From positions 1 through 30,316 of the IMG/VR virus record IMGVR_UViG_3300018080_000446: 30,316 nucleotides of DNA. One strand, written 5' to 3'. Below, in pieces: positions 8,624-25,459 of this stretch. This stretch comes from a virus. Each line of letters opens with the position of its first letter. Position 1 is the first letter of the stretch. The position numbers were made by a program, and so were the translations under genes. The notes beneath the pieces were generated by a model that worked only from the letters and a program-made list of their open reading frames with translations, ran no database searches and was not told where the DNA came from.

Positions 8624-8802
8624 TTGCCAGAATCCTTTCTCCCAGAAGGGAACTAGAACGCCAAAGAGCCACAGTGGAAAAAACTTCCCGGATTCTGGCG
8701 AATCTGAGGGGCAGCCGCTCCACTGTGGCTCTTTGACCACAACGTGTAGGGTTGTAAATAGGAAGGCGGCAAAAAAGCCCCTTCATTGATTCGCCAGAAT
8801 CG
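8624..8802 (-). promoter_or_regulatory. Structured 5' leader RNA, copy 1 (ribosome-site sequestering)
   Basis: The predicted transcript starts at about 8802. In transcript order it holds: a palindromic hairpin GATTC-TGGC-GAATC (8801-8788); a hairpin with a U6 loop (8783-8763); a conserved TTGTGGTCAAAG segment; the 5' arm of a perfect 16-bp stem (8734-8719); element E2, GATTC-GCCA-GAATC (8704-8691), in that stem's loop; and the 3' arm (8678-8663). Last comes GGATTCTGGC (8635-8626), just before the ATG. E2 is fully complementary (14 bp) to the first hairpin and (10 bp) to the ribosome-site segment, so the two pairings are mutually exclusive. The copy at 24292-24467 keeps the same pairings with different bases. 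Confidence 0.7.
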
Positions 8803-8808
8803 CTTCTC

Positions 8809-8851
8809 ATTTTACCATACCCCACACCGCCAGTCAATAGAACACCCGTTC
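8809..8851 (-). promoter_or_regulatory. Sigma-70 promoter of moron 1 with upstream LexA-like box
   Basis: On the minus strand, TTGACT (8837-8832), a 17-bp spacer and TAAAAT (8814-8809) form a near-consensus promoter. Just upstream, GAACACCCGTTC (8840-8851) matches GAAC-N4-GTTC, the Gram-positive-type LexA/SOS box. It lies directly behind the stop codon of the tail chaperone extension (8852). A box upstream of the -35 could repress, or could serve another regulator. Confidence 0.7.
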
Positions 8852-9076
8852 CTATCCCCGCGCCACCGCCCCCATCTTGGACAGCATCACCCGCACGTCG
8901 TCCACCACGTGCGCCGGTGTCTCCATCAACTCGCGCCAGCTCCACCCCATCGAACGGCAGATCACCGCATCCGTCAGATCACTCGGCAGCACGCTACCGT
9001 TCCTGATCGCCACCTCCACCTCGACCTCGAAACGTGGCTTGATCTTCCGCGCTGCGCGTCCTCCGTGGGTTAAAAT
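8852..9076 (-). CDS. Tail assembly chaperone, frameshifted C-terminal (T-like) part
   Basis: An open frame with no convincing start runs from after a TGA at 9116-9118 to a TAG at 8852-8854. It is in the +1 (equivalently -2) frame relative to the upstream chaperone gene. The product (KIKPRFEVEVEV..., then VICRSMGWSWRELMETPAHV and DDVRVMLSKMGAV) looks like a true protein and like the second half of a tail assembly chaperone. The upstream gene's own tail (RGRGGGGDQER) looks artificial. Tail chaperone pairs made by programmed frameshifting (lambda G/GT; -2 in Mu) are known in this position. The slip must lie between 9115 and 8995, probably near 9020-9077; I cannot name the slippery site. No start with a ribosome site is present. 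The 5' coordinate given is approximate. Confidence 0.7.
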   Translation of the reverse strand: MLTHGGRAARKIKPRFEVEVEVAIRNGSVLPSDLTDAVICRSMGWSWRELMETPAHVVDDVRVMLSKMGAVARG

Positions 9077-9395
9077 CCGCGATCTCGGCCAGCAGGAACC
9101 CCGCGTCCTCCTCGCTCAACGCCCGGATCCGCTCCGCCGTCACCGGCATCTCTTCGCCGTCCTCGTCCGTCCAACGAACCAGCGCCAGCTCCAAGAGTGC
9201 CACGTTCATCTTTTCCAGCGCCAACTGCGGATCGAACACCTTGCGGTATCCCCCGCCATCCTGCGGCTCCATCCGCACGTACACCGCGCTCAATGCCTGG
9301 CGGTCCCCGTATCCCAGCTTGCGGATCGTCGCCGTCTCCTTCTCATCCCACCAAGACGCCTGCACCACCCGCGTCTCCCCCACAAACCTCGGCAT
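8994..9395 (-). CDS. Tail assembly chaperone, G-like (unshifted product)
   Basis: A 133-aa reading frame lies between the tail tube gene and the tape measure, the standard position for the tail assembly chaperone that coats the tape measure during tail building. It begins MPRFVGETRVVQASWWDEKE and contains a helical middle (LALEKMNVALLELALVRW). Natural-looking sequence continues to LLAEIADFNP at about residue 109, after which the composition becomes odd (RGRGGGGDQER). This suggests that most of the useful product shifts frame into the downstream T-like segment (8852 onward). The ATG is preceded by a G-rich site of eight Gs. Assignment rests on position, size and the overlapping frame. No enzymatic motif is expected. 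Confidence 0.7.
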   Translation of the reverse strand: MPRFVGETRVVQASWWDEKETATIRKLGYGDRQALSAVYVRMEPQDGGGYRKVFDPQLALEKMNVALLELALVRWTDEDGEEMPVTAERIRALSEEDAGFLLAEIADFNPRRTRSAEDQATFRGRGGGGDQER

Positions 9396-9411
9396 AATAC
9401 CCCCCCCTCAA

Positions 9412-9444
9412 AGATTGGTTCAATCTTGGAGATTGAACCAATCT
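9412..9444 (-). terminator. Perfect 15-bp hairpin after the tail tube gene
   Basis: AGATTGGTTCAATCT (9412-9426), a 3-nt loop and AGATTGAACCAATCT (9430-9444) form a perfect 15-bp hairpin starting 3 nt past the tail tube stop. Each arm is itself near-palindromic (AGATTG...CAATCT). There is no clear T-run on the minus strand, only TTTGAG. It could be an attenuator or mRNA 3'-end stabiliser that lets the abundant tube protein exceed the chaperone. Confidence 0.6.
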
Positions 9445-9447
9445 ATC

Positions 9448-10482
9448 CTACGGATAAGCGGCTAGATCAGTCAGCAGCGCCGCCTGGAACATCTTGGCCC
9501 ACGTGCTATCATACACGCCCTCGGCTGTCACCTGCACCGTCGCCAGCCCATCCTCGTCCCCATACGTCGGCCAGTCCGTGTACCTAACTGCCGTGTCGAG
9601 ATATAAATACGGTACGTTGCTTTGCCCGCTGTCCAGCTCCGTCGCCCCCTTAAGTGCCAACCGAATAAACGTCGTCGTTCTCGCGTCGTACTTATCCCGC
9701 TCCGCCTCCGAGGTCGTCCCCCGGACGTACGTCAGCGTCAGCTCTGGCGCTTTCTTGCTCTCGCCAACTATCGCGAAATACAAGTTCCCATCGCTCGTAT
9801 AGACCGGCACGAACTTTGTGTCCAGCGTCCACGTGAACGCCTTCAACACGCCAGTTTTTTGAGTGCCACCCAAACCCGCCCCTGTGGTGTCCACGTAAAA
9901 CTCGGCCAGGTTGAAAGGCGCTCTCTGCACGCTCTGCGCCGTCAGCGCACCCGTAAACGTCGTCTCCGTCCGCTGCCTGCCCACGATCTCCGCCGTGAAC
10001 TGGCAAGCCTCGTTCGGTGCGCCGCTGATCGTCAGCTTGGTGCAAAAACAATATTCCGACTCATACGCCTGCACATTGTCCCCATACTCGATCGTGAACG
10101 TATCGATCCCGTTTGCAATGTCCGGCGTGTTTGCCGTCGTCAGCCCCGGCGTGAACGTCCACAAATACGCGTTCGGCTCGTTCGTGCTGTCCGGCTGCGT
10201 CGGCGTGATATTGCCACACAAAGACATTGACAGCGCGTACGCGATATGACGGAAATTGACGTCACCCGTCCACGTCAGCCGCGCCTCGTTGCCCACGAAC
10301 AAGTCATTCGCCATATGGCGCGCCAGGCTGCCCCGGTCCTCGTCCGGACTGTGCAACGTGTTCGCGCTCTCCGCCGTTGTCAGCATCCCGTACAATATTT
10401 CTGTAGCTGCCTCCGCCGAGCCAGGCGTGCCCTCCTCGTTGCTAATCTGAATCTTACTAAATGCCCTTAACGCTGTCGCCAT
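9448..10482 (-). CDS. Major tail tube protein
   Basis: This 344-aa beta-rich protein has the features of a siphovirus tail tube subunit: an N-terminal MATALRAFSKIQISNEEGTPGSA, an early GNEARLTWTGDVNFRHIAYALS segment, and repeated strands such as TKLTISGAPNEACQFTAEIVGR and LTLTYVRGTTSEAERDKYDA. A strong AGGAGG site lies 7 nt before the ATG, which overlaps the end of the small upstream gene. The strong site and the hairpin just after the stop fit a highly expressed structural gene. Gene order supports the call: connector genes upstream, tail chaperones and tape measure downstream. There is no sheath gene next to it, so the tail should be non-contractile. Confidence 0.8.
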   Translation of the reverse strand: MATALRAFSKIQISNEEGTPGSAEAATEILYGMLTTAESANTLHSPDEDRGSLARHMANDLFVGNEARLTWTGDVNFRHIAYALSMSLCGNITPTQPDSTNEPNAYLWTFTPGLTTANTPDIANGIDTFTIEYGDNVQAYESEYCFCTKLTISGAPNEACQFTAEIVGRQRTETTFTGALTAQSVQRAPFNLAEFYVDTTGAGLGGTQKTGVLKAFTWTLDTKFVPVYTSDGNLYFAIVGESKKAPELTLTYVRGTTSEAERDKYDARTTTFIRLALKGATELDSGQSNVPYLYLDTAVRYTDWPTYGDEDGLATVQVTAEGVYDSTWAKMFQAALLTDLAAYP

Positions 10483-10762
10483 CTACAACCTCCTGGTGTT
10501 GATAACATCTCTCTCCCCACGCCCCAACAGTCCGCTTGCATCGCCCGCCGCTCGCCGTCTCTGCCCCGCAAAACGGCTTGACCTCCACGACCTCCACCAC
10601 CACGTATAATCCCGTGCGCTCCACGTCCGCCTCCGTGATCCCCTCCCGCTGCTCGATCTCTACCAAATCGAACCGCGTCAGATCGCGCGCCGGGACGCCC
10701 ATCGCGTACGCCCCATCTCCAACGTACCTAAACACGGTGGCGCTTTTTATAGTCTCGCTCAC
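10457..10762 (-). CDS. Small protein with C-terminal Cys/His zinc-like motif
   Basis: This gene encodes 101 aa from a GTG at 10760-10762, chosen because a GGAGG site sits 7 nt upstream; the longer reading to 10822 lies wholly inside the glycosyltransferase gene. The N-terminal about 65 residues form a small mixed fold (YVGDGAYAMGVPARDLTRFD), like proteins that cap the neck. The C-terminal part reads FCGAETASGGRCKRTVGAWG followed by ERCYQHQ: a C-x(8)-C-x(8)-C-x(2)-H pattern. I recall this as a common small treble-clef-like motif in phage and bacterial proteins. It overlaps the tail tube start by 26 nt and the glycosyltransferase by 35 nt. Its function is unknown. A regulatory or structural zinc-binding role is possible. 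Confidence 0.7.
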   Translation of the reverse strand: MSETIKSATVFRYVGDGAYAMGVPARDLTRFDLVEIEQREGITEADVERTGLYVVVEVVEVKPFCGAETASGGRCKRTVGAWGERCYQHQEVVDGDSVKGI

Positions 10763-11333
10763 GCTCGTTCCTCCACTGCACGTACGCCCGCATCCGCCGC
10801 GCATAATCGACCGGACGCGCATACTTTAGGTGTAAGATGTTCCCATACGCCGGAGGCCAGCGCCGCGCACCTTTCACGTCCAGCAATTTCCCATCCTGCC
10901 ACACCGCGCTGTGCGCGCCCTCGTACCGCACGTCTCCCGTCTCCTGGAACATCCTCACACCCCAAGACTGCGCCCCGTTCCACGTGTTGATCATCATCGC
11001 ATAGTATCGCCCCGGCTCTGCCACCGGCAGCTCGCCCTGGAGGCGCTCGTCCGCGTCGATCACAAAGTACCAGTCCCCCGGATTCCCGATCAAGCTCGCG
11101 TTCCGCTTTTCCACCTCGTCCGCCCAAGCCCTCGGCGCGTCCACCCACTCGGCCCCGTAACACTCGGCGATCACCTGCGTCCCGTCTGTGGAAGAGGGCA
11201 CCGTGTGCTCGTACTGCGCGAACGCCCCATCCACCACCACCACCCGGTCCACCTTCATCTCCAGGCTGTCCAAGCACGCAGGGAGCAGCTTCCCCTCATT
11301 GAACGCGATCACACACGCCACTATAGCCATCAC
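10728..11333 (-). CDS. Family 2 (GT-A) glycosyltransferase
   Basis: This 201-aa protein shows the GT2 pattern: an N-terminal strand and nucleotide-binding loop VACVIAFNEGKLLPACLDSL, then DRVVVVDGAF, then STDGT, and the metal-binding DxD as VIDADE at residues 91-96. Downstream motifs (YEGAHSAVWQDG; GNILHLKY) fit the acceptor half of short GT2 enzymes. It would transfer a sugar from a nucleotide sugar to an unknown acceptor in the cytoplasm. The gene is embedded between the tail-completion gene (GTGA overlap) and the tail tube operon, so it is co-expressed with virion genes. Plausible substrates are a virion protein, phage DNA or the host surface; none is shown by the sequence. The start is GTG 11333 or ATG 11330. 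Confidence 0.85.
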   Translation of the reverse strand: MMAIVACVIAFNEGKLLPACLDSLEMKVDRVVVVDGAFAQYEHTVPSSTDGTQVIAECYGAEWVDAPRAWADEVEKRNASLIGNPGDWYFVIDADERLQGELPVAEPGRYYAMMINTWNGAQSWGVRMFQETGDVRYEGAHSAVWQDGKLLDVKGARRWPPAYGNILHLKYARPVDYARRMRAYVQWRNERERDYKKRHRV

Positions 11334-11794
11334 GCAAACTCACCCGATCCCGCGTAACCGATCTCCTCCACCGTGCTCACCGTCACCCGGAACCCCGCAA
11401 AACTCGGCAACGCCGACGTCCGCTCCCCCTTTTGCCACAAGTACATCAGCTCGTCGCTGGCGCTCGCCCAACTGTTCGTGATGTTCGCCGTACTGTTCAG
11501 CGTCGGATACTTGTTGATCTGGTCCACCACCGCCTGCCGTGCCGTAACCAGCCCGCTCAGGCTGTCACCCGTGAACCGGGACCACACCTCCACGTAATGC
11601 GTCCACGCATACGTTACCTGTCCATAATCCCCGCTCCTGAGCGCCTCGAACGGCCCCGCAACGACGATAGCATACGGATCTGACCCCCGACCCAACACCT
11701 GGAAATCGCCCAGCGTCACGTCCGCGTCCGCAAAATTCGCCAGTGCCCGGATCAACGTCTGGATTGCCGCCTGTATCGTCGCGTCTCCGGCCAT
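11330..11794 (-). CDS. Putative tail completion / tail terminator protein
   Basis: This 154-aa protein is encoded directly after the connector gene (stop and start overlap as TGATG) and before the tail tube. It begins with a helical segment MAGDATIQAAIQTLIRALAN, then strands (TLGDFQVLGRGSDPYAIVVAG; YAWTHYVEVWSRF) and a helix LVTARQAVVDQINKYP. This alpha-beta-alpha order is typical of tail terminator or minor tail proteins (gpU/gp17-like) that seal the tail tube at the neck. I do not see a family signature that would settle it. The role is inferred from order, size and predicted secondary structure. Confidence 0.6.
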   Translation of the reverse strand: MAGDATIQAAIQTLIRALANFADADVTLGDFQVLGRGSDPYAIVVAGPFEALRSGDYGQVTYAWTHYVEVWSRFTGDSLSGLVTARQAVVDQINKYPTLNSTANITNSWASASDELMYLWQKGERTSALPSFAGFRVTVSTVEEIGYAGSGEFA

Positions 11795-12309
11795 CAGTCA
11801 GTGTCCCAATCCACGACCGCGTTCCCCATCATCTTACGCTGAAACACCGGCTCTATATCATCCCCTGCGTCGTCAACGTCTCGATACTCTAGCCCGTACG
11901 TCATCTTGTACGTCCTGGTCGCGCCCAACAGCTCGAACCCCTTGGCCCGGTCCTTGATAAAGATCTCCGCGTCTCGCATAATCACTCTGGTAGGTGTCGT
12001 GTACCGCATCTCGTCAGCGCCAGACACGAACGGGCCCGCGCCGTTGGCGTATGCCGCCAGATGCGCCACGTGCATCACCACGAAATCGTCCAGCGCCAGC
12101 TTGGCGTCTGCCTGCGTCACCGGAATATCGAAACCCTCCTCCGCCAGCACCACATTGACGATCCCGCTCACCCGGTCGATCATCCCCTCCACCTGTGTGA
12201 TCGTCGGCCGCGTCGTCGCGTCGAACGTCGTCCCCGTCGCCGTGGCGTACAGCGGTACCAGCGCCCCGACCTCTGCAACCGTCCCGTAACTGTTGTCACC
12301 GATCGTCAT
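11794..12309 (-). CDS. Head-tail connector (adaptor) protein
   Basis: This 171-aa protein has the helical layout of gp6/gp36-type connector subunits. The N-terminal YGTVAEVGALVPLYATATG is followed by a helix in which ITQVEGMIDRVSGIVNVVL is the usual 'xxVExxIDRVSxxI' pattern, then KLALDDFVVMHVAHLAAY. A ring of such subunits would sit under the portal. A GAGGGG site lies 6 nt before the ATG. Neighbours are a structural protein of unknown type upstream and the tail completion gene downstream, consistent with the neck module. Confidence 0.75.
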   Translation of the reverse strand: MTIGDNSYGTVAEVGALVPLYATATGTTFDATTRPTITQVEGMIDRVSGIVNVVLAEEGFDIPVTQADAKLALDDFVVMHVAHLAAYANGAGPFVSGADEMRYTTPTRVIMRDAEIFIKDRAKGFELLGATRTYKMTYGLEYRDVDDAGDDIEPVFQRKMMGNAVVDWDTD

Positions 12310-12329
12310 ATTCTACCCCTCAATCTACG

Positions 12330-12878
12330 TCAAGCCGCCTCATAGATCCCCGTCAGACAAAAGTCCAGCGTACCGGACCCGCTCACCTCTTCCACCCACA
12401 CCACAATGTCACCGGTGCCCGGCTTGGTCGTCGATCCCACCGGACTCGCCCGATTGGTATCGTTCTGCCAGTTCACGTTATCTGCCTGCGTCAAATTGCT
12501 CGCAAAGTTCGTCAGCGCCCCGCTCACCACGACCAGATTGACGCCCTCCGGGTTTCGCCCGCCGAGCGTAAAGTCCACGGAAGTGTGGAACCGGTCCGTG
12601 CTGTCCGTCGCGTTGATCACCGACTCCAGATGAAAACAATGGACCCACGTAACGCTTCCGTTCGTCGCATCGTTTTCGGTCACCACGCCCACCCACACAT
12701 CGTACACCCCATCAGACGCCTTTTCTGCGCTCAGGATCAGCCCCAGAAGGTGCAGCTCTGTCGTGACCGTGTGAGGAAAGTTCGTCGTGTCAGAAAGATC
12801 AACCAACACGTAAGGGGTGGAGGCTGCCACGGCCTCCGCCCCCAACGTCACTACGTGTGATGGTCTACCCGGCATCAT
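12330..12878 (-). CDS. Beta-rich structural protein, unknown (possible second decoration protein)
   Basis: This 182-aa protein consists almost only of alternating hydrophobic/polar segments (STPYVLVDLSDTTNF; YDVWVGVVTEND; GVNLVVVSGALTNF; TGDIVVWVEEVSGSGTL), as expected of a beta-sandwich. It starts with ATGATG overlapping the upstream stop. It carries no signal, membrane helix or catalytic motif. It lies between head genes and the connector, so a virion decoration or neck-associated role is plausible. I do not recognise a family. Confidence 0.65.
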   Translation of the reverse strand: MMPGRPSHVVTLGAEAVAASTPYVLVDLSDTTNFPHTVTTELHLLGLILSAEKASDGVYDVWVGVVTENDATNGSVTWVHCFHLESVINATDSTDRFHTSVDFTLGGRNPEGVNLVVVSGALTNFASNLTQADNVNWQNDTNRASPVGSTTKPGTGDIVVWVEEVSGSGTLDFCLTGIYEAA

Positions 12879-13099
12879 TCACCTCCAGACTTGCGCGCCT
12901 TGGCGGGTTTCTTCTTTGGATCCGGCTCTGGCTCCGGCTCTGCCGCCTTCACCTCGACCACGCTCAGCAGCGGAGAATTGCGGATCTCGTCCGTCATCTC
13001 GTGCTCGTGGATGTACTCCACGCCCCGCTTGCTGAAAATCCGCCCCGCCACCCTGGCGGTATCCCAGCGATATTTCTCACTGACCAATACCTCGTACAT
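12875..13099 (-). CDS. Small head/neck-module protein with acidic linker and basic tail
   Basis: This 74-aa protein begins MYEVLVSEKYRWDTARVAGR and contains a folded part up to about residue 50 (VEYIHEHEMTDEIRNSPLLS). It ends in a Pro/Glu/Asp linker (EPEPEPDPKKKP) and a Lys/Arg-rich tail. A strong AGGAGG site precedes the ATG. It overlaps the next gene by 4 nt. Short proteins of this type, with a 'TDEIRxSPLL' centre, recur between capsid and connector genes of siphophages, but their role is not known to me. The charged tail could contact DNA or another virion protein. Confidence 0.7.
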   Translation of the reverse strand: MYEVLVSEKYRWDTARVAGRIFSKRGVEYIHEHEMTDEIRNSPLLSVVEVKAAEPEPEPDPKKKPAKARKSGGE

Positions 13100-13108
13100 A
13101 GTCGCCTC

Positions 13109-14816: not shown

Positions 14817-14849
14817 GATACACCTCCTCAGAATTGCGAATAGCGATTC

Positions 14850-15743
14850 TTAGGTGTTCCCTTGTTTCACCAGACGCCAGTCTCCATAGTACATCTCGTA
14901 CCGGGCAAAGAACTTGAAATAGTGCCTGCCGCCGTCTGGCATCTGCGGATCGAACCACGCATCCTGCAAGCTCGGCTCCTTGCGCATCGCCACGATGATG
15001 GGCTTGATCGGCTCGCTGGACGCCACGATGTGCCACGCGGTCGAGTCATAGTATGGCGTCACCACCATATCAAAATTGGTGTATGGGTTGATCTCGTCGT
15101 TCGCGCTGTCGTATGCCAGCGGGTTGCCGACGATGTTGGCCGCGATCCGGCGCAGAGAGGGCGAGCACACCAGGAGATCATAGTCATAGTCAGTGTACTC
15201 CCCCTGGTCGTCCACGAATGCCTGGGCCGCGATCAGCATCGTCTCGAAATTGTCCAGACTGAGGGCAGCACCACCCTCGTTATCCTGCGCGGTCTGGTAG
15301 TGGGCACCCGGATCTACGTGATCACTGTCGAAAAAATCCTGCCCGTCGTAGCACGCGCCGTATGTTTGACTATCACCGGCATTCAGCACCTCGAACACGC
15401 GCTTGTTGATGTGGCGTTGAAAGTTTCGGCCCGCGCCGCGCACCTTCTGCTCCAGAGCACCCGTCTGATCGTCGTCAATCGCGTTTTGGCTGATCCAGAC
15501 GATGATCTCCCAGTCCGACGGTGTGACGGTCAGGCTCTTCTCGATGTAATCCTGGATCTCGCGCCCGGTCTTGCTCTCGACCGGCATCGGAGCCGCGCCA
15601 AGATCGACCAGATCGTGACTCTTGGCCGTCATATTGAACGTCATCGCCACCCGCTGCCACGGCATTGGGCTTTCCCGCAACGCGGTCAGAAACCCGGTCC
15701 GTGCACCTACCACTAAATGTTGTGGGACATTCCCTGAAATCAT
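14850..15743 (-). CDS. Major capsid protein (Mu gpT-like)
   Basis: This 297-aa protein resembles the Mu gpT group of HK97-fold capsid proteins in length and order: an N-terminal arm (MISGNVPQHLVVGARTGFLT), an early region SLTVTPSDWEIIVWISQNAI, then LEQKVRGAGRNFQRHINKRV, a characteristic YDGQDFFDSDHVDPG loop, and LLVCSPSLRRIAANIVGNPL, ending RYEMYYGDWRLV. A strong AGGAGG site precedes the ATG. The gene follows a Mu gpI-like protease/scaffold and a decoration-like gene, matching the Mu I-Z-T order. It would form the icosahedral shell. Confidence 0.85.
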   Translation of the reverse strand: MISGNVPQHLVVGARTGFLTALRESPMPWQRVAMTFNMTAKSHDLVDLGAAPMPVESKTGREIQDYIEKSLTVTPSDWEIIVWISQNAIDDDQTGALEQKVRGAGRNFQRHINKRVFEVLNAGDSQTYGACYDGQDFFDSDHVDPGAHYQTAQDNEGGAALSLDNFETMLIAAQAFVDDQGEYTDYDYDLLVCSPSLRRIAANIVGNPLAYDSANDEINPYTNFDMVVTPYYDSTAWHIVASSEPIKPIIVAMRKEPSLQDAWFDPQMPDGGRHYFKFFARYEMYYGDWRLVKQGNT

Positions 15744-15786
15744 CTAAAACCTCCTATTATCCGTTATCTTATTCCTGTAATCCGTG

Positions 15787-16242: not shown

Positions 16243-16243
16243 C

Positions 16244-17293: not shown

Positions 17294-17304
17294 AATCCCT
17301 CCGG

Positions 17305-17748
17305 TCACCTTGCCGCCGCCGCGATCCGCGCCAATATCGCGTCCACCGCCTCGCTCACCAATGCGTCCACATCCCCCACGCTGTCCCGGATCACGTCCTC
17401 CGTCGTCTGCCACCGGCCCCGGTGCATATACGCTTGCTCGGCCGGTGATTGTACAAATGGCCCGTATGGCGTCGCGTTCGAGATCGTTCCCTCGACAGAC
17501 GCCCCTCCGCCCCCAAAGTTCACCACTGGCCTGCCGCCGCGCCACAACCGCCCCAGCGTGCCCATCCGCCTATACGTGCTCCCCCCTGGAGGAGACGGAT
17601 ACACCGCCGCCCGTCCCGCCAATAGCAGCAGCGCCTGGCGCATCTTTCCGCCGATCTCCTGCCGCGCAAACTCGCCATACCTGGCCAGCGCCGCGCTCAA
17701 TCGCCGTGCATCGTCCGAAAACTCCTCCAACCCACTCGGATCAAGCAT
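17305..17748 (-). CDS. HK97 gp10-like / virion morphogenesis protein
   Basis: This 147-aa protein has an N-terminal helix pair (LEEFSDDARRLSAALARYGE) and a core with a loop GGSTYRRMGTLGRLWRGG. The segment NATPYGPFVQSPAEQAYMHR is typical of gp10-family and Mu virion-morphogenesis proteins, which help join tail to head. A C-terminal Ala-rich helix follows. It overlaps the portal gene by 8 nt. Its place between portal and protease differs from HK97 order but matches Mu-like maps, where gpG-type morphogenesis proteins follow the portal and MuF genes. The exact role (connector or assembly factor) is uncertain. Confidence 0.7.
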   Translation of the reverse strand: MLDPSGLEEFSDDARRLSAALARYGEFARQEIGGKMRQALLLLAGRAAVYPSPPGGSTYRRMGTLGRLWRGGRPVVNFGGGGASVEGTISNATPYGPFVQSPAEQAYMHRGRWQTTEDVIRDSVGDVDALVSEAVDAILARIAAAAR

Positions 17749-19732
17749 TTCCCACCATCGCTCTTGCCGCGCTCAATGTCATTCCTCCGTAATTCGCACT
17801 CACCACTACGCCCTGGAGATCCCTGTCGCTCAACGCCCCCCACGGCGTCGCCACCGGAACCTGGCTCACCCGCTCGTCGCTCGCCGTCTGCCACACGATC
17901 ACCCACTCGCCATTAGGCAGCCGCTCCGGCCGCAACCAGCATCGGCACCGCACGTGAGCCGGTGGCCTGAATATCGCCTCCGGCAGCCCCGCAGCCTGGA
18001 AAACAAGATTATTAGCCTCTGAAAAAACCCGTGTCACCTCCGTGATGGCGATCATCTGCGCCCGGTTCGCCCCAAAAACAGGTTCCAACAGCGCCTCCAG
18101 CTCGCCCAACTCCCCGCCCGTCTCTATCCACGCCGCCACCGCCTCCCGCACGTTGCGCAGCGTCGTCTCGTTCAATCCCGTGATCAGATCGTATGTATAC
18201 TCCCTGGCCCATGCCAGCGCGTCCGCGTTTATCTCTGTCCAATCCACTCCCATCTCTATCGCTGCCGACTCTACTGCCCGCACCAACACAGAAACGAGAG
18301 GCCCTAACAACTCGGACCGCATCACGGCATCCTCCGCGGTCCAAAAATCGCCGTTATCTCCCACGTTACCCTCGCCGGATGCCTGCGCCTCGATCACCCG
18401 CTCCGCCTGGTCACCAAACGCCTGCCGCACCGCCACCTCGACTGCCGACTCTGCATCCCCACGCCCGTCCGGCTCCCCCTCCTGGAACTCGGCCAGCTCT
18501 TCTTGTTCATCAACCTGCAAATTCTGATTCCGATCTGAATTTGCTGAACTATCAGCGTCCGCGCTGATGGTCGGCATACCCGTTCGTCGCCGCAGCCAAT
18601 CCTCGTCCTCAGGCCGCCAGCTCAACTTGTCCCCGATCTGCTGCAACCAGTTCCCCAACTGCCCCAGCGCAGGCTTCTCGACCTTCGTGTGGACCACCTT
18701 TGGCATCCCCGTCACCGCCAGCGACGGGTTATATCCCATCAGCCGCGCCACCCCGAACCGGTTTACCACACCTGCGATCCGGTCCAGGAACCCATCGACC
18801 GCCATCAGGAACAACTGGCTCTTGTCGCTCCCCAATGCCCAGCTCCCAGTCTGCCCCGTCCCCAGGTCGATGAAATCGGCAAGCAACGTCTGCAACATCA
18901 AAAGCCGGTAATATTTGATCGTGTTCAGCAGCGCCTCTGCTCCCGCGTTATTCGCGCTCTCAAGCCTGAATTTTATACCTGACGGCACGCTGACGTACTG
19001 CTTTTCATCCATCGTCAGGCCCTGGCCCACGCGCTCGACCACTGACTTATCGTCGGCAGAGGGCTTTTCCTCATACTCGAACACCGGCAAACCGACAAAC
19101 GTCCGCTGCCAGCCAATCCCCTGCATAATCTGGTAATTCTTCACGTAATACCAGATCTCGTACAGGCTCTCCAGCAGCGCAAAACCCTCCGGGTTGCCGC
19201 CGTCCCGCTGGGACGTAAAATGCAAACTCTTTTCGATGGGGATCGTCCGCTTCTGGTAGTCCGGGGCAGGCCGCTGCACCATCCCCTGCACTCCGCCCGC
19301 ACGATCAATCTCCCACCTGTGAAACGAGGATTGTCGCCGCACGGCCCACTTTTTCCAGCCCACCAGACCATCATCCCGCCGCTTGTATACCAGCTCCAAC
19401 CAGCTCCAACCAAACAGGACGCAGGATAGGGCATCCTCCACCGCGTCCTCGCTGGTATGGCTCATATCGTCCATCGCCAAATTCAAGAAATCCGCCGCCC
19501 GTTTGTCCCCGTCCGTCGCGCCCCCAGGCTCTGCGTACCACGACGCAGTCCTGGCCAGCAAGATCAGCGCGTTCCAGATCGTGCGGATCGTCGGATCTCG
19601 CCGCCGCATCTCGTCGTAAATCGAAAATGCCCCCGGCCAATACAGCTTGGACGTGTACGACTCCATAACCTGGCCGTTCCATTCCTGGAGGCCGCTCTCG
19701 CCCTTCTCAGGCATCAGACTGATCCTAGCCAT
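17741..19732 (-). CDS. Portal protein fused to a MuF-like head morphogenesis domain
   Basis: This is a 663-aa protein. Residues of about 1-400 resemble Mu gp29-type (DUF935) portals: YDEMRRRDPTIRTIWNALIL, a helical stem region (YEIWYYVKNYQIMQGIGWQR; YRLLMLQTLLADFIDLGTGQ) and FLDRIAGVVNRFGVARLMG. An acidic linker follows (EEQEELAEFQEGEPDGRGD-like). Residues of about 480-620 match the MuF/SPP1 gp7 C-terminus: ITEVTRVFSEANNLVFQAAG, then PPAHVRCRCWLRPE, the conserved His and paired Cys. In most phages these are two adjacent genes; here they form one polypeptide. The portal ring is the DNA gate and the MuF part would lie inside the head. An AAGGAG site precedes the ATG, which overlaps the terminase gene by 19 nt. 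Confidence 0.85.
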   Translation of the reverse strand: MARISLMPEKGESGLQEWNGQVMESYTSKLYWPGAFSIYDEMRRRDPTIRTIWNALILLARTASWYAEPGGATDGDKRAADFLNLAMDDMSHTSEDAVEDALSCVLFGWSWLELVYKRRDDGLVGWKKWAVRRQSSFHRWEIDRAGGVQGMVQRPAPDYQKRTIPIEKSLHFTSQRDGGNPEGFALLESLYEIWYYVKNYQIMQGIGWQRTFVGLPVFEYEEKPSADDKSVVERVGQGLTMDEKQYVSVPSGIKFRLESANNAGAEALLNTIKYYRLLMLQTLLADFIDLGTGQTGSWALGSDKSQLFLMAVDGFLDRIAGVVNRFGVARLMGYNPSLAVTGMPKVVHTKVEKPALGQLGNWLQQIGDKLSWRPEDEDWLRRRTGMPTISADADSSANSDRNQNLQVDEQEELAEFQEGEPDGRGDAESAVEVAVRQAFGDQAERVIEAQASGEGNVGDNGDFWTAEDAVMRSELLGPLVSVLVRAVESAAIEMGVDWTEINADALAWAREYTYDLITGLNETTLRNVREAVAAWIETGGELGELEALLEPVFGANRAQMIAITEVTRVFSEANNLVFQAAGLPEAIFRPPAHVRCRCWLRPERLPNGEWVIVWQTASDERVSQVPVATPWGALSDRDLQGVVVSANYGGMTLSAARAMVGNA

Positions 19733-21321
19733 AGGCTCCTTGTCCCATTTTCTCTTTGTCCCCCTGTCTCGTTAAACAAATCCCATTGGCTAGACTTGTC
19801 CGGCGCTTGCGGCAGGTCCTCCATACTCACATACCCCGGCAGCATCTGCCACCCGCCGCTCACCCCGTCCACCTGGTCGTCGTGCGTCCCGCCCGGAAAA
19901 CTCAGTGCCTCGGCCACGAACGTATCGTTCCACGGCCCGCGCACCATAAACACCTTCTGGTCCTCGATGCGCGTCGCCCACAACTGCGCCCGCGCCTCTT
20001 TATCTCCCCTGGGAGCCACCGGGACCACGCTCACGCCCTGGAGCGCGTCATCGTCCCGCAGCTCCTGGTAGTATCCATCCTGTTGCCCGGCCACCTCGAT
20101 CCCCTGCACCACCTCGACCGGATCCTCACGCATCACCCGCACCATCTTGGGCCGTGCCGACGACCACGGAGCCGCGATCCGTGCAATGTCCATAATGTAG
20201 AAATTCTTTTTCCGGTCCCGGCCACACAACGCGCCGCAGATCCAGTCCGCCCGCTTGCTGCGCCCCACCGCCAGGTCCCAATACCGCACCGGACGTACCT
20301 CGCCCGGCACCGCGTCCACATCGATGATCTGGATCTGGTTTGCCTTGATCAGCTTGCCCTCCAGCCTGCGCGGACGCTGCTGGTACAGCGCGTCCCAATC
20401 GTAGCCGCTGTTGGCCCGGATGGGACGAAAATAATCCAAATCGAACATCCGCTCGCACAACACCTCGCCCGGCACCCGGTCCAGCGGGTCCACGCTCATA
20501 AACCAGCCATCCTTGAGCGCTCGCTCGACCTCATCCGCCGCAACCGCCTGCGCCCACGTCTCTGCCAGCGCTGGCAGACACACGATCTCCCACTGGTCCG
20601 CGTCCGGCTCGGTCACCATCTGTTTGATCAGCTTGCCGCTCAAGTCATCCGAGTGCCACCGCGTCTGGATCACGATTGCCGCGCCGCCCTTTTCGATGCG
20701 CGTCCGTGCTGTGGATGTCCACCAGCTCCAGACCGCATCCCGCTTGGCCGCGCTCTCCGCCTCAGCCCGGTCCTTGTGCGGGTCGTCCACGATCAGCAGA
20801 TTGAACCCGCGCCCCGTGATACCGCCGCCCACGCCCGCCGCCATCACGCCGCCCCTGGTTCCCAGCAGGTTCCACTCCTCCACGCTCCGGCTCTCGCCGC
20901 TCACCTCGACCAGGTCCACGTCGCCCGCCGCCCGGTCTCCGAACAATGCCCGGAACGGGTCATCCATCAAGTGATTCCGCGCCCGACGCGAAAACCCTTT
21001 CGCCAGGCTCGCGTTATAACTCGTGATCCCGATCCGCAGGTCCGGGTTGCGCCCCAGCACCCACGTCGGGAACAACACGCTCGTCGTCGTGCTCTTCCAA
21101 TGGCGGGGTGGCATAAACACCATCAACCGCCCGATGCCCTCGGCCCCATCCGTCGCCACGTACCGCTCCACGTCCTCCAGGTAGCTGGCCAGCAGATTCA
21201 GGTGGCGCGCCCAGAACGGGTACCCCTTGTACACGTACCGCTCGAAATCCAGGAACGAGTCCCGCGCCAGCTTGCGCCGGGCCAGCTCCCGCTTGGCCGC
21301 CAATCGTGTATCGTTACCCAC
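19714..21321 (-). CDS. terL: Terminase large subunit
   Basis: This 535-aa packaging motor ATPase and nuclease is well supported. Walker A is PPRHWKST at residues 71-78 (the Arg/His form seen in this group). Walker B is LLIVDDP at 175-181, with the coupling motif TRWHSDDLSG near 220. The RNase H-like nuclease has acidic residues in RYWDLAVG (Asp349), QGIEVAG (Glu409) and THDDQVDG (Asp481/482 and Asp485). It would bind the small subunit and the portal and cut the DNA concatemer. Its presence means that packaging is by a terminase from concatemers, not by Mu-style transposition, even though the head proteins are Mu-like. It overlaps both neighbouring genes, pointing to translational coupling. 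Confidence 0.95.
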   Translation of the reverse strand: MGNDTRLAAKRELARRKLARDSFLDFERYVYKGYPFWARHLNLLASYLEDVERYVATDGAEGIGRLMVFMPPRHWKSTTTSVLFPTWVLGRNPDLRIGITSYNASLAKGFSRRARNHLMDDPFRALFGDRAAGDVDLVEVSGESRSVEEWNLLGTRGGVMAAGVGGGITGRGFNLLIVDDPHKDRAEAESAAKRDAVWSWWTSTARTRIEKGGAAIVIQTRWHSDDLSGKLIKQMVTEPDADQWEIVCLPALAETWAQAVAADEVERALKDGWFMSVDPLDRVPGEVLCERMFDLDYFRPIRANSGYDWDALYQQRPRRLEGKLIKANQIQIIDVDAVPGEVRPVRYWDLAVGRSKRADWICGALCGRDRKKNFYIMDIARIAAPWSSARPKMVRVMREDPVEVVQGIEVAGQQDGYYQELRDDDALQGVSVVPVAPRGDKEARAQLWATRIEDQKVFMVRGPWNDTFVAEALSFPGGTHDDQVDGVSGGWQMLPGYVSMEDLPQAPDKSSQWDLFNETGGQRENGTRSLWLGSV

Positions 21322-22012
21322 GGCCCTCTCCCGGCTCGTAGGCCAGCGCCCGCAGATCGTCCTCCGTCATCTCCTCCAGGTCGTCCGGCACCATCGCCCC
21401 CACCCGGATCGTCTCGCTCTTTTTATAATCACCCGTCATTTCCAGGAACAATTTCCGGTCCGCGTGCGCCCGGTAATTGGCCGATGACGCGCTCTCGATC
21501 AATGCCCGGATCACCCGGCTCCGCGCCTTACCCAGTGCGCTCGCTGTCAACTTGGCAATCCTGGCCATAATGGCCGGGTTATCCGCCTTCCACGTCCTGA
21601 TCACCCGGTCGCTCGTCAGCCCCAGGATCTCAGTCGCCAGCTCGCCCTGCGTCTTTGGCGTCCGGTTCTGCGATGGCTGCGCCTCCCACAACATATACAC
21701 CGCCTGCCGCCAGCTCCACCCCTCACCCAGCAGATCCCAATAATCGTCCATCCAAGGCTCCGCCGCCGCGTCCCCAGCCTCGAACACCTTCCGCGCCGCC
21801 TCGCTCTTCAACTGCGCCTCACTCAACGGATCCATCACCGCCCCCTCAAACCCCGGCAGCGTCAACGGATCATACGGTGGCTCAACACCCTGGAGGAGAA
21901 CAGGATCGCCAGGGGGTGAGGAACCATCGAGGGCGGGGTTCGAGGGCCCCTCTTGGCTCTCCTGCGCTCCTCCAGAATGTGGAACGTTATTAAAACGGCT
22001 CACCGATTTCAT
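21314..22012 (-). CDS. terS: Terminase small subunit
   Basis: This 232-aa protein is encoded directly upstream of terL with an 8-nt overlap. A central helix-turn-helix is visible (NRTPKTQGELATEILGLTSD followed by RVIRTWKADNP), with a second helical region (IMARIAKLTASALGKARSRV) for oligomerisation, and a C-terminal acidic tail (LEEMTEDDLRALAYEPGEG) that could contact TerL. This is the layout of phBC6A51/phage-type small subunits, which recognise the packaging site. The N-terminal about 60 residues are Pro/Gly/Ser-rich and probably unstructured. The ATG lies within the end of the endolysin gene; a later start around the MDPLSEAQLK methionine is possible. Confidence 0.85.
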   Translation of the reverse strand: MKSVSRFNNVPHSGGAQESQEGPSNPALDGSSPPGDPVLLQGVEPPYDPLTLPGFEGAVMDPLSEAQLKSEAARKVFEAGDAAAEPWMDDYWDLLGEGWSWRQAVYMLWEAQPSQNRTPKTQGELATEILGLTSDRVIRTWKADNPAIMARIAKLTASALGKARSRVIRALIESASSANYRAHADRKLFLEMTGDYKKSETIRVGAMVPDDLEEMTEDDLRALAYEPGEGRG

Positions 22013-22634
22013 CCCTCAACGCTGTGTAAAACAACGACCGCCAACCCATATCGCCCCACCCAGGGCACACCGTCGCCCGGTATCGATCATTGTGTCCCTG
22101 CACCTGCTCCAGCGGGATGCTGTATTCCTCCATTAGCCACGCCACCAGCCGCACCGTCGCCGCCATCTGCTCCGTCGCCGGCAGCACCTTGTGCAGATGC
22201 CCCGCCATCCCCACGCTGATATTCACGTTTCTGTGCCCCGTGTGGTCGTGCCACATCCCGTAATGTAACGGCACGCACAGCCAGCACTCCCCCGCCTGGC
22301 TCACCCAGAAATGATAGGGCAGCGTCGGACGCCCTTTCTGATCAATCACGTATCGCGCTGTCGCCTCTGGGCTGGCGCTCAACGTGTGGTGGATCGTGAT
22401 CCCATCAATCTCGCCCGGCTCTCGCAGCCACCACGCCTCCGGGTCTGTCGGCTCTGGATTGACCGGAATATGCTCGATGATGTCCACGTATGGCAGCGTT
22501 AACTCATCCACGTCCACCTGCAACTGCTCGGCCATCTCGACCAGCTCATCAGACAGCGTTGGCAAACCGTCCATTCGCGTCCGCAGATCTGCCGCGATCT
22601 CCTTGATCCGTTCGACCGCCCAATTATTCGACAC
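21990..22634 (-). CDS. Endolysin: PGRP/amidase_2 N-acetylmuramoyl-L-alanine amidase
   Basis: This enzyme would cut the bond between N-acetylmuramic acid and L-alanine in peptidoglycan at lysis. The domain spans about residues 75-205: ITIHHT with the zinc His near residue 82, YHFWVSQAG with the Tyr near 107, HRNVNISVGMAG, and QGHNDRYRATVCPG with the second zinc His near 181 and the Cys near 190. An N-terminal helical region of about 60 residues precedes it (ERIKEIAADLRTRMDGLPTL), perhaps for targeting. I chose the GTG at 22632-22634 (VSNNW) because a GAGGAG site sits 4-5 nt upstream; a GTG four codons earlier lacks one. No signal peptide is present, so a holin should release it, fitting the membrane genes just upstream. 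Confidence 0.9.
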   Translation of the reverse strand: MSNNWAVERIKEIAADLRTRMDGLPTLSDELVEMAEQLQVDVDELTLPYVDIIEHIPVNPEPTDPEAWWLREPGEIDGITIHHTLSASPEATARYVIDQKGRPTLPYHFWVSQAGECWLCVPLHYGMWHDHTGHRNVNISVGMAGHLHKVLPATEQMAATVRLVAWLMEEYSIPLEQVQGHNDRYRATVCPGWGDMGWRSLFYTALRDEIGEPF

Positions 22635-22929
22635 CGTTCTCCTCACCGGCCACCGCCTTCCCGATGGCTCGCTCTGCCTCCATCATCCGGCATTTGGCCA
22701 TACACGACATCAACGTCTCGTGCAACGTCTGCCGTTCAATGTACCAGTTACGCCGCTCGTTCTTCAACTGCACATTTTCCTCTCGCAGATCATCCAGCAA
22801 ACCAATCGCCGTCTCGGCAATTCTGGCCGTCGCGTTGGCATCCGTCAGATTGCGCTGCCGCCACGCCGCATATAAGCCAGGCAATGCCGCCGCCAGCGCC
22901 ACCAGGAGCGGGATCCATTCGATGTTCAC
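22624..22929 (-). CDS. Lysis-cassette membrane protein with coiled coil
   Basis: This 101-aa protein starts at a GTG that overlaps the upstream stop (GTGA). A single N-terminal hydrophobic helix (WIPLLVALAAALPGLYAAW, about 5-23) is followed by RQRN and a long amphipathic coiled coil (AETAIGLLDDLREENVQLKN, ERQTLHETLMSCM). One N-terminal TM plus a soluble coiled coil is the plan of inner-membrane spanins and of some XhlA-like holin partners. It sits between the holin-like gene group and the endolysin. Whether it is a spanin depends on whether the host has an outer membrane, which the window does not show. Confidence 0.7.
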   Translation of the reverse strand: MNIEWIPLLVALAAALPGLYAAWRQRNLTDANATARIAETAIGLLDDLREENVQLKNERRNWYIERQTLHETLMSCMAKCRMMEAERAIGKAVAGEENGVE

Positions 22930-23144
22930 ACAGCACCATTCTCACCCACCCCGTCCAACTCATTAGCAAACGTGAATACCATCAGCACGTTCAGCAACTC
23001 CTCGCGCACCTGCTCCAACTCCTCGACCATCACCCGGATTGACGCGATCTTTTCCTCCAGAGACGCTACGACGCCTCGCAAACGTTTGACCGCCCGCTTG
23101 CGAGACTCCAGGATCACCGCCGCTTCGTTTGTCTCAACGTCCAC
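22926..23144 (-). CDS. Small coiled-coil protein in the lysis cassette
   Basis: This 72-aa protein is predicted to be almost a single helix: LRGVVASLEEKIASIRVMVE, then ELEQVREELLNVLMVFTFAN. It has no signal or membrane segment. The GTG start at 23144 has no clear ribosome site and lies 13 nt after the holin-like stop, so it may be translated by coupling, or start later. It overlaps the next gene by 4 nt. It may belong to the holin/spanin machinery. I do not recognise a family. Confidence 0.6.
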   Translation of the reverse strand: MDVETNEAAVILESRKRAVKRLRGVVASLEEKIASIRVMVEELEQVREELLNVLMVFTFANELDGVGENGAV

Positions 23145-23157
23145 AACGGCAAACTAT

Positions 23158-23433
23158 TTATTTCCCGCCGAATAGATCGTTGATGAAATTCGCTCCACCG
23201 CCGCACACGATAGCCGTCAGCACCAAACCGACCACCTCATTCGGCAAATATGCCACGAACAGATTGACCCCGCTCAATCCCACCAGCGCCCCACCAACCA
23301 CCCAAGACACATACTTGAGCCAGAACGTATCCAGCGCATACCGCTCGAATATCGGCACCGCCAGCGCGTCGATCAACCGGTTCGCCACCATCGAAAGAAA
23401 AATTGCAATTGCCAACATCTCCGCCAAATCCAT
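23158..23433 (-). CDS. Probable holin from internal start
   Basis: This is the shorter product of the lipoprotein/holin frame. AGGAGG and 7 nt precede the ATG at 23431-23433. The 91-aa protein begins MDLAEMLAIAIFLSMVANRL and has hydrophobic helices at about residues 6-27, 39-61 and 66-83, with an ending (GANFINDLFGGK) that is soluble and Gly-rich. Size and topology fit a holin. It is reported separately because the start site decides between two very different proteins. Confidence 0.65.
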   Translation of the reverse strand: MDLAEMLAIAIFLSMVANRLIDALAVPIFERYALDTFWLKYVSWVVGGALVGLSGVNLFVAYLPNEVVGLVLTAIVCGGGANFINDLFGGK

Positions 23434-23598
23434 CTCAACTCCTCCTAAAAATTCACCAGTAGCCGCGATTTCCAAATCGCGCCCAGGAACCGCCAGCGGG
23501 CTCGCTGGTGGCGTGGGTAAAGGTGACACCGTTGGCATCACATCCACCACGCACCCCACCAAAACCGCCACCGCCACCAACAAAACCAAAACCCGCAT
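23158..23598 (-). CDS. Lipoprotein / holin-like membrane protein with two good starts
   Basis: From ATG 23598 (GGAGG 6 nt upstream) the 146-aa product begins MRVLVLLVAVAVLVGCVVDV, a lipoprotein signal with lipobox LVGC, then a Pro-rich linker. A second in-frame ATG at 23433 has an even better AGGAGG site at 7 nt and gives a 91-aa protein with two or three TM helices (AEMLAIAIFLSMVANRLIDA; YVSWVVGGALVGLSGVNLFV; VVGLVLTAIVCGGGANF), typical of a phage holin. Holins open the membrane for the endolysin encoded nearby. Two products from one frame would recall the dual-start holin/antiholin genes of lambda and P21, with the longer form acting as inhibitor. An attenuator-like hairpin lies just upstream. 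Confidence 0.7.
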   Translation of the reverse strand: MRVLVLLVAVAVLVGCVVDVMPTVSPLPTPPASPLAVPGRDLEIAATGEFLGGVEMDLAEMLAIAIFLSMVANRLIDALAVPIFERYALDTFWLKYVSWVVGGALVGLSGVNLFVAYLPNEVVGLVLTAIVCGGGANFINDLFGGK

Positions 23599-23611
23599 CA
23601 CATCCCTCCAC

Positions 23612-23656
23612 AAAAAAAGCGCGCCGCCTCCCCCTTTCGGGAAAAGCAGCGCGCTT
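23612..23656 (-). terminator. Attenuator-like intrinsic terminator before the lysis genes
   Basis: On the minus strand, AAGCGCGC (23656-23649) pairs with GCGCGCTT (23624-23617), extended by partial pairing inside, and is followed by a run of seven Ts. It ends only about 14 nt before the lipoprotein/holin start. It could end the upstream transcript and also act as an attenuator needing antitermination for lysis. Confidence 0.75.
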
Positions 23657-23698
23657 CCTACGCTAACGCCGGACCCGGTCACCCGGATCTATTTATCA

Positions 23699-23729
23699 TT
23701 TATACCACGTGCAGAAACGCAGTTTCTGC
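23699..23729 (-). promoter_or_regulatory. Candidate promoter with palindromic operator before the lysis operon
   Basis: An extended -10 (TGGTATAAA, minus strand; hexamer 23704-23699) is preceded by the perfect palindrome GCAGAAAC-GCA-GTTTCTGC (23711-23729), which covers where a -35 should be. No consensus -35 is seen (AGAAAC at 17-bp spacing). Such a layout suggests activator-dependent late transcription, but the evidence is modest. Confidence 0.35.
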
Positions 23730-23732
23730 CAA

Positions 23733-23750
23733 GCCACCGTCTGCGGTGGC
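23733..23750 (-). terminator. Short hairpin after the 65-aa gene
   Basis: GCCACCG-TCTG-CGGTGGC is a perfect 7-bp hairpin 2 nt beyond the TGA at 23753. It has no T-run (followed by TTGGC on the minus strand), so it is at best a weak terminator or pause. Confidence 0.4.
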
Positions 23751-23752
23751 CA

Positions 23753-23950
23753 TCAACGCAAAAAAGCCGCGTCCACTGCCTCGCGCTCCTTCACCTCCGC
23801 GCTCACACTGGACCCGGCACAATCGAACGTCACCGCCAACCTGTCCGGGATCATCAACCGCTCTGCCCGTGCCACCAGCCAGCGCACGATCAACGCGATC
23901 CGGCCACGAACACAATATTCACGGTCACCATCCAGAACAGATAAACTCAT
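23753..23950 (-). CDS. 65-aa protein under a LexA-like operator, unknown function
   Basis: The product begins MSLSVLDGDREYCVRGRIAL and continues with a hydrophobic helix (IVRWLVARAERLMIPDRLAV), strands (TFDCAGSSVSAEV) and an Ala-rich end. A stop (TGA) 3 nt before the ATG fixes the start; the G-rich GGGGG site is about 10 nt away, so translation may be weak. Its own promoter lies just upstream with a perfect palindromic GAAC-N4-GTTC box over the start of the transcript, implying damage-type or repressor control. Another frame (23700-23915) is also open but has unnatural composition. I do not recognise a family. Position next to the lysis operon might mean a regulator of lysis. Confidence 0.6.
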   Translation of the reverse strand: MSLSVLDGDREYCVRGRIALIVRWLVARAERLMIPDRLAVTFDCAGSSVSAEVKEREAVDAAFLR

Positions 23951-23969
23951 TCGTCAGCAGCCCCCGTCT

Positions 23970-24019
23970 AGAACACACGTTCTTTGCATACTATACCACA
24001 CATACCCCTAATCTGTCAA
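23970..24019 (-). promoter_or_regulatory. Consensus sigma-70 promoter with LexA-like operator at +1
   Basis: On the minus strand, TTGACA (24019-24014), an 18-bp spacer and TATAGT (23995-23990) preceded by TGG (extended -10) form a strong promoter. Immediately downstream, AGAACACACGTTCT (23970-23983) is a perfect palindrome containing GAAC-N4-GTTC and covers about +1 to +14. This is the classic arrangement for LexA-type repression. Confidence 0.75.
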
Positions 24020-24030
24020 CCCCCAACATC

Positions 24031-24047
24031 ACGGTTATCCCAACCGT
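24031..24047. promoter_or_regulatory. Perfect inverted repeat ACGGTT-N5-AACCGT
   Basis: A 6-5-6 dyad, 12 bp upstream of the -35 at 24014-24019 and before the terminator of moron 2. Its size and position suit an operator for a dimeric regulator. The regulator is not identified. Confidence 0.45.
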
Positions 24048-24063
24048 TATTTCTGAATAACGC

Positions 24064-24093
24064 AAAAGCGCCGGGACCCCACAGCCCGGCGCT
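24064..24093 (-). terminator. Intrinsic terminator of moron cassette 2
   Basis: A 9-bp perfect stem (AGCGCCGGG with CCCGGCGCT) and a 9-nt loop are followed by TTTTGCG on the minus strand, 13 nt past the 61-aa gene's stop. Confidence 0.85.
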
Positions 24094-24105
24094 CGTAACT
24101 CCGCC

Positions 24106-24291
24106 CTAAGCACGCACAGCGTGCGCCAGCGCCTCGAACGCCGCCCCCATCACCCGCAACAACCGGACATCCGCCTCCCGGTCCGCACCACCGATCACCT
24201 CCAACGCCGCCGCGCACGCTTCCGCCAACAACGCGCACGTATCCCGCGACAACGCCACCACCGCAAACACGTCAATCTTTTCGATAAACAT
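24106..24291 (-). CDS. Small helical moron protein 2, unknown function
   Basis: This 61-aa protein begins MFIEKIDVFAVVALSRDTCA and is helix- and Ala-rich (LLAEACAAALEVIGGADREA; FEALAHAVRA). The ATG follows GGAGATGGGCAA, giving a GGAG site whose sequence is also the last element of the structured leader. Like the 70-aa gene at 8411-8623 it is a one-gene unit with a LexA-boxed promoter, a structured leader of about 176 nt and a terminator. The two proteins do not clearly resemble each other, although both are small and helical. This suggests that the control cassette, not the protein, is what is shared. Candidates include inhibitor or signalling proteins, but I do not assign a function. Confidence 0.65.
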   Translation of the reverse strand: MFIEKIDVFAVVALSRDTCALLAEACAAALEVIGGADREADVRLLRVMGAAFEALAHAVRA

Positions 24292-24467
24292 TTGCCCATC
24301 TCCTTTACTCTACTAAACGCAAAAGCCAGCAATGGCTGCACCTGTCCGGGAGATGGGCATCTCGCAGAGCGGGCAACGCGCCATTGCTGGCCTTTGACCA
24401 CAAAATATACAATTGTGGGGTGAGGGACAAGCGCAAAAAAAACCGCTCCCCAGAGATGCCCATCTCA
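24292..24467 (-). promoter_or_regulatory. Structured 5' leader RNA, copy 2 (ribosome-site sequestering)
   Basis: From the predicted start at about 24467 the order matches copy 1: hairpin GAGAT-GGGC-ATCTC (24466-24453); a hairpin with an A8 run on the plus strand, so U8 in RNA (24450-24424); TTGTGGTCAAAG; stem arm (24395-24380); E2, GAGAT-GCCC-ATCTC (24363-24350); stem arm (24336-24322); and GGAGATGGGC (24303-24294) before the ATG. E2 pairs fully with the first hairpin (14 bp) or with the ribosome-site segment (10 bp). The E1/E2/E3 bases differ from those of copy 1, but every pairing is kept. Confidence 0.7.
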
Positions 24468-25422: not shown

Positions 25423-25459
25423 TTTACCCCCTTTAAAATACAATGACTCGCTCAGCTCT

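Follow-up and report, generated by a model that had tools for sequence, protein, structure and literature searches.

In the leader of phage P4, the CI RNA pairs with seqA, located upstream, and with seqC, located downstream (PMC4825925), whereas in the IsrK/anrP leader of Gifsy-1 copies of a sequence compete, leading to inactive and active folds whose balance is tipped by an RNA acting in trans (PMC4825925). The c4-a1b1 element is listed in PMC2864571, and the c4 RNA of phages P1 and P7 blocks the start site of ant and sets the heteroimmunity between these phages (PMC12197685). Here we describe a leader with a related plan that occurs twice in a 30.3-kb phage contig (IMG/VR record IMGVR_UViG_3300018080_000446, positions 1 to 30,316; hereafter the window), whose recognisable genes lie on the minus strand. 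A 14-nucleotide (nt) word at the 5' end of the leader (E1) is followed by its complement (E2) and by a further copy on the start site (E3). Around their ribosome-binding site, translational riboswitch platforms likewise have three segments that exclude one another. Judging from the conservation described below, the leader is a real RNA switch, uncatalogued until now, and it probably decides when small genes are translated. Our preferred explanation, held with moderate confidence, is that these promoter-autonomous phage cassettes carry in their leaders a translational switch of the self-antisense type.

The two cassettes, A and B, are found among the phage genes of the window and each has its own sigma-70-type promoter, leader, small open reading frame (ORF) and terminator-like hairpin. 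Their features, all on the minus strand, are as follows (P2, P3 and P4 are hairpins; bp, base pairs; aa, amino acids).

Cassette A:
8840..8851, minus: LexA-like box GAAC-N4-GTTC, exact match, overlapping the -35 region of A
8809..8837, minus: promoter A, TTGACT-17-TAAAAT, from the promoter scan
8788..8801, minus: E1 of A (GATTCTGGCGAATC), at about +1
8762..8784, minus: P2 hairpin of A, with a T6 loop
8739..8755, minus: P3 hairpin of A, stem ACAAC/GTTGT
8662..8735, minus: P4 hairpin of A, 17-bp stem, 74 nt, containing E2
8691..8704, minus: E2 of A (GATTCGCCAGAATC), predicted anti-Shine-Dalgarno
8621..8634, minus: E3 of A (GATTCTGGCAAATG), over the Shine-Dalgarno sequence and start codon
8411..8623, minus: small ORF of A, 70 aa
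8355..8379, minus: terminator-like hairpin at the end of cassette A

Cassette B:
24506..24517, minus: LexA-like box with one mismatch, at the -35 region of B
24474..24503, minus: promoter B, TTGACC-18-TATAAT
24453..24466, minus: E1 of B (GAGATGGGCATCTC), at about +1
24424..24451, minus: P2 hairpin of B, with a T8 loop, read from the sequence and alignment
24398..24418, minus: P3 hairpin of B, stem CCACAA/TTGTGG
24320..24396, minus: P4 hairpin of B, 17-bp stem, 77 nt, containing E2
24350..24363, minus: E2 of B (GAGATGCCCATCTC), predicted anti-Shine-Dalgarno
24289..24302, minus: E3 of B (GAGATGGGCAAATG), over the Shine-Dalgarno sequence and start codon
24106..24291, minus: small ORF of B, 61 aa, with homologues behind the leader in copies C and E (see below)
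24064..24093, minus: GC-rich hairpin and T run at the end of cassette B (AGCGCCGGG...CCCGGCGCTTTT), read from the sequence

Leader A spans 8801-8624 and leader B 24466-24292, and in both the order from 5' to 3' is E1, the poly-U-loop hairpin P2, hairpin P3, the stem P4, which holds E2 close to the tip, and finally E3. In A and B, E2 is the exact reverse complement of the E1 word, and E3 repeats the word's initial 9 or 10 nt and continues with A(A)ATG. The last base of the -10 box is 8809 in A and 24474 in B, and E1 begins 7 nt further on in each, in agreement with the proposal of an earlier, sequence-only reading of this DNA that both leaders start with a palindrome at the predicted transcript start. 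That reading also gave a leader length of 176-179 nt; the distance from E1 to the AUG is 178 nt in A, within this range, and 175 nt in B, just short of it. Among the conserved words that it listed, TTGTGGTCAAAG (at 8742 in A and 24403 in B) and GGCAAATG (at 8628 and 24296) are indeed present in both leaders, while TCAATAGAACAC (at 8834 and 24500) lies outside the transcribed RNA and corresponds to the -35 hexamer plus half of the LexA-like box. The fold energy of both leaders was better than that of 200/200 shuffles (z -4.9 for A and -4.4 for B), and a 9-nt word followed by its complement and again by the word before a start codon occurred once in 60 dinucleotide shuffles of the window, compared to the two real leaders.

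Three more copies of the leader (C, D and E) were detected in two related metagenomic phages by pattern and covariance searches. Copy C was retrieved with an IUPAC pattern for E1/E2/E3 in which some letters were fixed and the variable letters left free, and copy D with a pattern of the promoter plus GGTCAAAG alone. Both are located on IMGVR_UViG_3300014613_000044, which is syntenic with the window (the structural genes share mostly 52-69% protein identity) and in which a promoter-plus-stem scan revealed exactly two copies. A covariance model of A-D constructed without any E1:E2 or E2:E3 pair (R1) led to copy E, located in a third phage (IMGVR_UViG_3300044712_001102; 35.5 bits, E 2e-8). Because neither the pattern used for D nor R1 included E1:E2 or E2:E3 pairs, the words of these two copies test the pairing independently.

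The words are GATTCTGGCGAATC in A, GAGATGGGCATCTC in B, GAGCAAGGCAGCTC in C, GAGACAGCATCTC in D and GAGCATCGCAACTC in E, and although their letters vary, E1 repeats the E3 word and E2 is its complement in all five copies. In the helices, aligned by hand with one gap in D, 68 of 69 E1:E2 cells are paired, with two-sided changes at 8/14 pairs, and 47/49 cells are paired for E2:E3 over ten positions; the P4 stem shows 83/84 paired cells and two-sided changes at 9/17 pairs. When duplex energies were compared, the own partners ranked first of 120 assignments (ahead of 119 re-pairings) for all three helices, a rank that is not a strict P value as the copies are related. Even so, words that diverge at as many as half of their positions would hardly stay complementary unless they paired. 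Within E1, the self-palindrome shortens from 5 bp in A and B to 4 in C and D and 3 in E, evidencing that what is kept is the E1:E2 pairing and not the palindrome; in copy E, E1:E2 pairs at 13/14 positions although E1 self-pairing amounts to 3 bp. The layout is conserved as well: E1 lies 6-7 nt from the -10 box in 5/5 copies, E3 always runs from the Shine-Dalgarno sequence (GGAG; GGAT in A) as far as the start codon, with the complement of the Shine-Dalgarno sequence at the end of E2. These observations bear out the suggestion that the two cassettes share a regulatory RNA absent from Rfam.

With respect to the described systems, a search of the window with Rfam at gathering score produced no match, and over four leader loci Rfam returned matches far below gathering (the mir-769 line reflects a resemblance between long hairpins). 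C4 (RF01695) was not detected at E<=5 in the four leader loci nor above cut-off over the three phages, and isrK (RF01394) gave no match above cut-off. The earlier reading knew of no described element with this plan, which is in line with these Rfam results, but not with the logic shared with P4 seqA-CI-seqC, c4 and IsrK. As in P4, one leader carries an anti-word flanked by two complementary words, an order found within one leader in all five copies, in a comparison that is based on the published description (PMC4825925) and not on direct sequence comparison. The systems differ in that the processed CI RNA of P4 ends transcription prematurely, while here E3 sits on the Shine-Dalgarno/AUG and E1 at +1. 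The likeness to c4 is that of a phage antisense RNA aimed at an mRNA start site, since E2 is complementary to the downstream start site and E2:E3 covaries; the stems, however, are different and the downstream genes are not recognisable antirepressors. IsrK also resembles these leaders in that a leader sequence competes with its own second copy for pairing, but it has its own terminator and acts through orf45 coupling. By the curated models the leaders are none of these, although they probably work in a similar way.

In the proposed mechanism, the transcript would begin at E1. E2, near the tip of the stable P4 hairpin, would pair with E3 and shut the start site (OFF); this pairing should block initiation because E2 is complementary to a segment, E3, that overlies the Shine-Dalgarno sequence and the start codon. 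E1, which has the same word as E3 and is made first, would compete for E2 and leave the start site open (ON), and the choice might be tipped by folding order, leader processing or another RNA with the same word. We infer that E2:E3 blocks translation, that E1 relieves the block and that the action is mainly in cis. The isolated duplexes E1:E2/E2:E3 have predicted energies (kcal/mol) of -22.8/-19.8 in A, -26.1/-22.7 in B, -25.3/-23.2 in C, -22.7/-19.8 in D and -20.5/-20.3 in E. Across all copies the two pairings are separated by 0.2-3.4 kcal/mol; such a near balance, which would allow the choice to be tipped, is what a switch should show. The sequence-only reading had proposed that a kissing-loop step starts the switch. 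The complementarity of the E1 and E2 loops on which it relied (UGGC/GCCA and GGGC/GCCC) is present, but this step appears weaker, being a by-product of E2 complementing E1. A terminator scan detected a small terminator-like hairpin inside the 3' strand of P4 in B and none in leader A.

Several points weigh against the switch. Once P4 forms, E1:E2 and E2:E3 are pseudoknots, unscorable by the folding programs used, and folds restricted to nested pairs disagree, with P4 winning in A, C and D and E1:E2 in B; in copy E three states lie within about 6 kcal/mol. In addition, the copies are few: so far five, in three related phages and two small-protein groups, a number that is no measure of rarity as IMG/VR was scanned by exact patterns and GTDB by a strictly filtered sample. 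The sequence-only reading had named as support many hits with covarying stems upstream of diverse genes; the searches yielded the covarying stems, but neither the number nor the diversity of hits.

Among the alternatives, the strongest rival, possible albeit unlikely, is a trans-acting immunity RNA. The E2 hairpin would be cut out of the leader RNA, or stem from transcripts left incomplete, and would silence all transcripts with the same E1/E3 word, in the manner of P4 CI RNA or P1/P7 c4 RNA, and the differing words would keep the two cassettes of one phage from silencing each other. This would agree with the order, the same as in seqA-CI-seqC (PMC4825925), with the constant length of the hairpin (74-80 nt, with E2 31-34 nt inside, across the five copies) next to variable flanking spacings (66-101 nt from E1 to P4 and 28-38 nt from P4 to the AUG), and with words that are cassette-specific and cross-pair poorly. 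Between A and D the words have half diverged (7/14 identical) while the P4 strands keep 15/17 and 15/18 positions. Conversely, the words of C and E are still fairly alike (11/14), and no processing site was found for the hairpin, nor a promoter of its own, nor a second phage with the same word as a candidate immunity partner. An elaboration of this idea, which we regard as speculative and rather doubtful, is that each cassette has a private word, that the E2 hairpin is a trans immunity RNA against incoming phages with the same word, and that selection for heteroimmunity diversifies the words, so that a single phage carries two orthogonal damage-inducible circuits.

A ligand-binding riboswitch, with P2-P5 as the aptamer and E1/E2/E3 as the expression platform, is improbable. 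Anti-Shine-Dalgarno/anti-anti-Shine-Dalgarno logic is typical of riboswitch expression platforms, and conserved words do occur outside the switch (ACAAC...GTTGTGGTCAAAG, CTTTNGCG and the poly-U loop); nevertheless, P4 covaries freely, no highly conserved unpaired core of the aptamer type was seen, the downstream genes have no metabolic theme and no aptamer of a known Rfam riboswitch class was matched. The phage leaders differ from riboswitch platforms in that the pairing words drift together, with no core held by a ligand. That E1, E2 and E3 are palindromic repressor sites in DNA, the alternative offered by the sequence-only reading, is very improbable, since the words covary rather than keep their primary sequence. 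E1 and E2 are palindromic in A and B, and E1 is at +1, as such sites might be, but one repressor would hardly read words that differ within one phage (E1 identity 7/14 between A and B and 10/14 between C and D), E3 is half a palindrome, and in copy E the palindrome decays while complementarity persists. Moreover, operators leave the covariation of P4 unexplained and the cassettes have no recognisable repressor gene. We consider least probable of all a mobile repeat or recombination site whose hairpins serve cassette insertion: A and D lie in adjacent, not identical, gaps of a shared order of tail genes, yet the words differ in every copy, E3 is always exactly on the start site, a promoter and a start codon accompany every copy, and B, C and E remain on the terminase side of their phages.

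The search for further copies covered several data sets. In IMG/VR, the word pattern TGTGGTCAAAG...GGCAAATG gave 14 matches, none of them with the leader anatomy on inspection. A looser pattern, CATTTGC...CTNTGRCC, gave 106 stretches, of which C and D were the ones that passed the structural filter, and the promoter pattern TTCTATTGAC...TGGTAWAAT showed no further leader among the matches listed. No leader was detected near terminase relatives in GTDB genomes (80 loci), nor with R1 under strict filters in the phylum to which an Ardenticatenia metagenome-assembled genome (MAG) belongs (301 genomes). The leader DNA had no match in INPHARED, and a refitted model (R2) run over 19 other phage records gave a single 31-nt chance match. 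Repeats of AACGTTCC in locus L020 appeared similar to the leader at first and were discarded as copies because of their different layout. In this locus (4240-4590), several AACGTTCC/GGAACGTT words occur in a stretch of about 350 bp belonging to a terminase relative and resemble an operator array.

The ORFs after B, C and E belong to one family (B and C match with E 2e-4), and a second family may comprise the ORFs that follow A and D (32% identity, in a weak two-sequence comparison). The proteins downstream of A and B are in separate sequence groups, in line with the earlier remark that they are not clearly related. The small proteins had no useful match in Pfam, NCBIfam or PHROGs and no relatives in IMG/VR, the protein of copy E had none in INPHARED, and no homologue without this leader was present in the phage DNA examined. 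An AlphaFold model of the copy C protein is helical (predicted local distance difference test, pLDDT, 71), with no useful structural match. Cassette A separates a tail gene (8994-9395) from the tape-measure gene (6322-8157), and D is found one gene earlier; as they occupy different gaps of the tail-gene order, this cassette was moved or gained twice. B and C are both on the terminase side and adjoin a second promoter with a GAAC box.

The GAAC-N4-GTTC box found on the promoters is exact in A and C, has one mismatch in B and D and is absent in E, which also lacks a clear -35. In Firmicutes and Actinobacteria, this motif is that of LexA (PMC3323433). The exact box occurs twice in the window versus 0.41 expected, and 9/100 shuffles reach this count, which is not significant; its weight comes from its location on promoters and not from the count alone. 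As a lead rather than a result, this location suggests that transcription follows DNA damage. The LexA-box promoter pattern had no match in the class to which an Anaerolinea MAG belongs (298 genomes), so a host in this class is not supported. Just after cassette B (24019-23753, minus strand), a promoter TTGACA-18-TATAGT with an exact box at about +1 precedes a 65-aa ORF, and a similar promoter with GAACATTAGTTC is found just after copy C in the relative (L055, about 7590-7640). GAAC/AAAC-N4-GTTC boxes also abut TTGAC promoters of the same layout in other phages (L186, 6739-6772; L256; L190 and L244, near one end); in L190, two box-bearing promoters appear to diverge from one short region.

Other genes recognised in the window include:
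19714-21321, minus: terminase
17741-19732, minus: portal
14850-15743, minus: major head protein

Additional observations concern other regions of the window. A 323-aa ORF (24520-25491), A+T-richer than its surroundings and without a match in Pfam, PHROGs or NCBIfam, is probably a recent acquisition. A PAPS-reductase-like gene (phrog_424) is found at 26325-27176 and a ParA-like partition gene (phrog_164) at 28802-29539; the latter may point to a plasmid-like prophage state. Directly upstream of the ORF at 9395-8994, a near-perfect 15-bp inverted repeat (AGATTGGTTCAATCT/AGATTGAACCAATCT) at 9404-9440 is followed by a G run, and the same site was flagged in the promoter scan (TTGAAC-18-TATTAT).

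Altogether, these leaders represent a structured regulatory RNA outside Rfam, with strong covariation obtained from few sequences. The leader exposes its own pairing code, so that the mechanism is testable by swapping a few letters. If the E2 hairpin did act in trans, RNA immunity of the P4/c4 type would extend to phages unrelated to the enterobacterial ones, and the cassettes would provide ready-made orthogonal translational switches.

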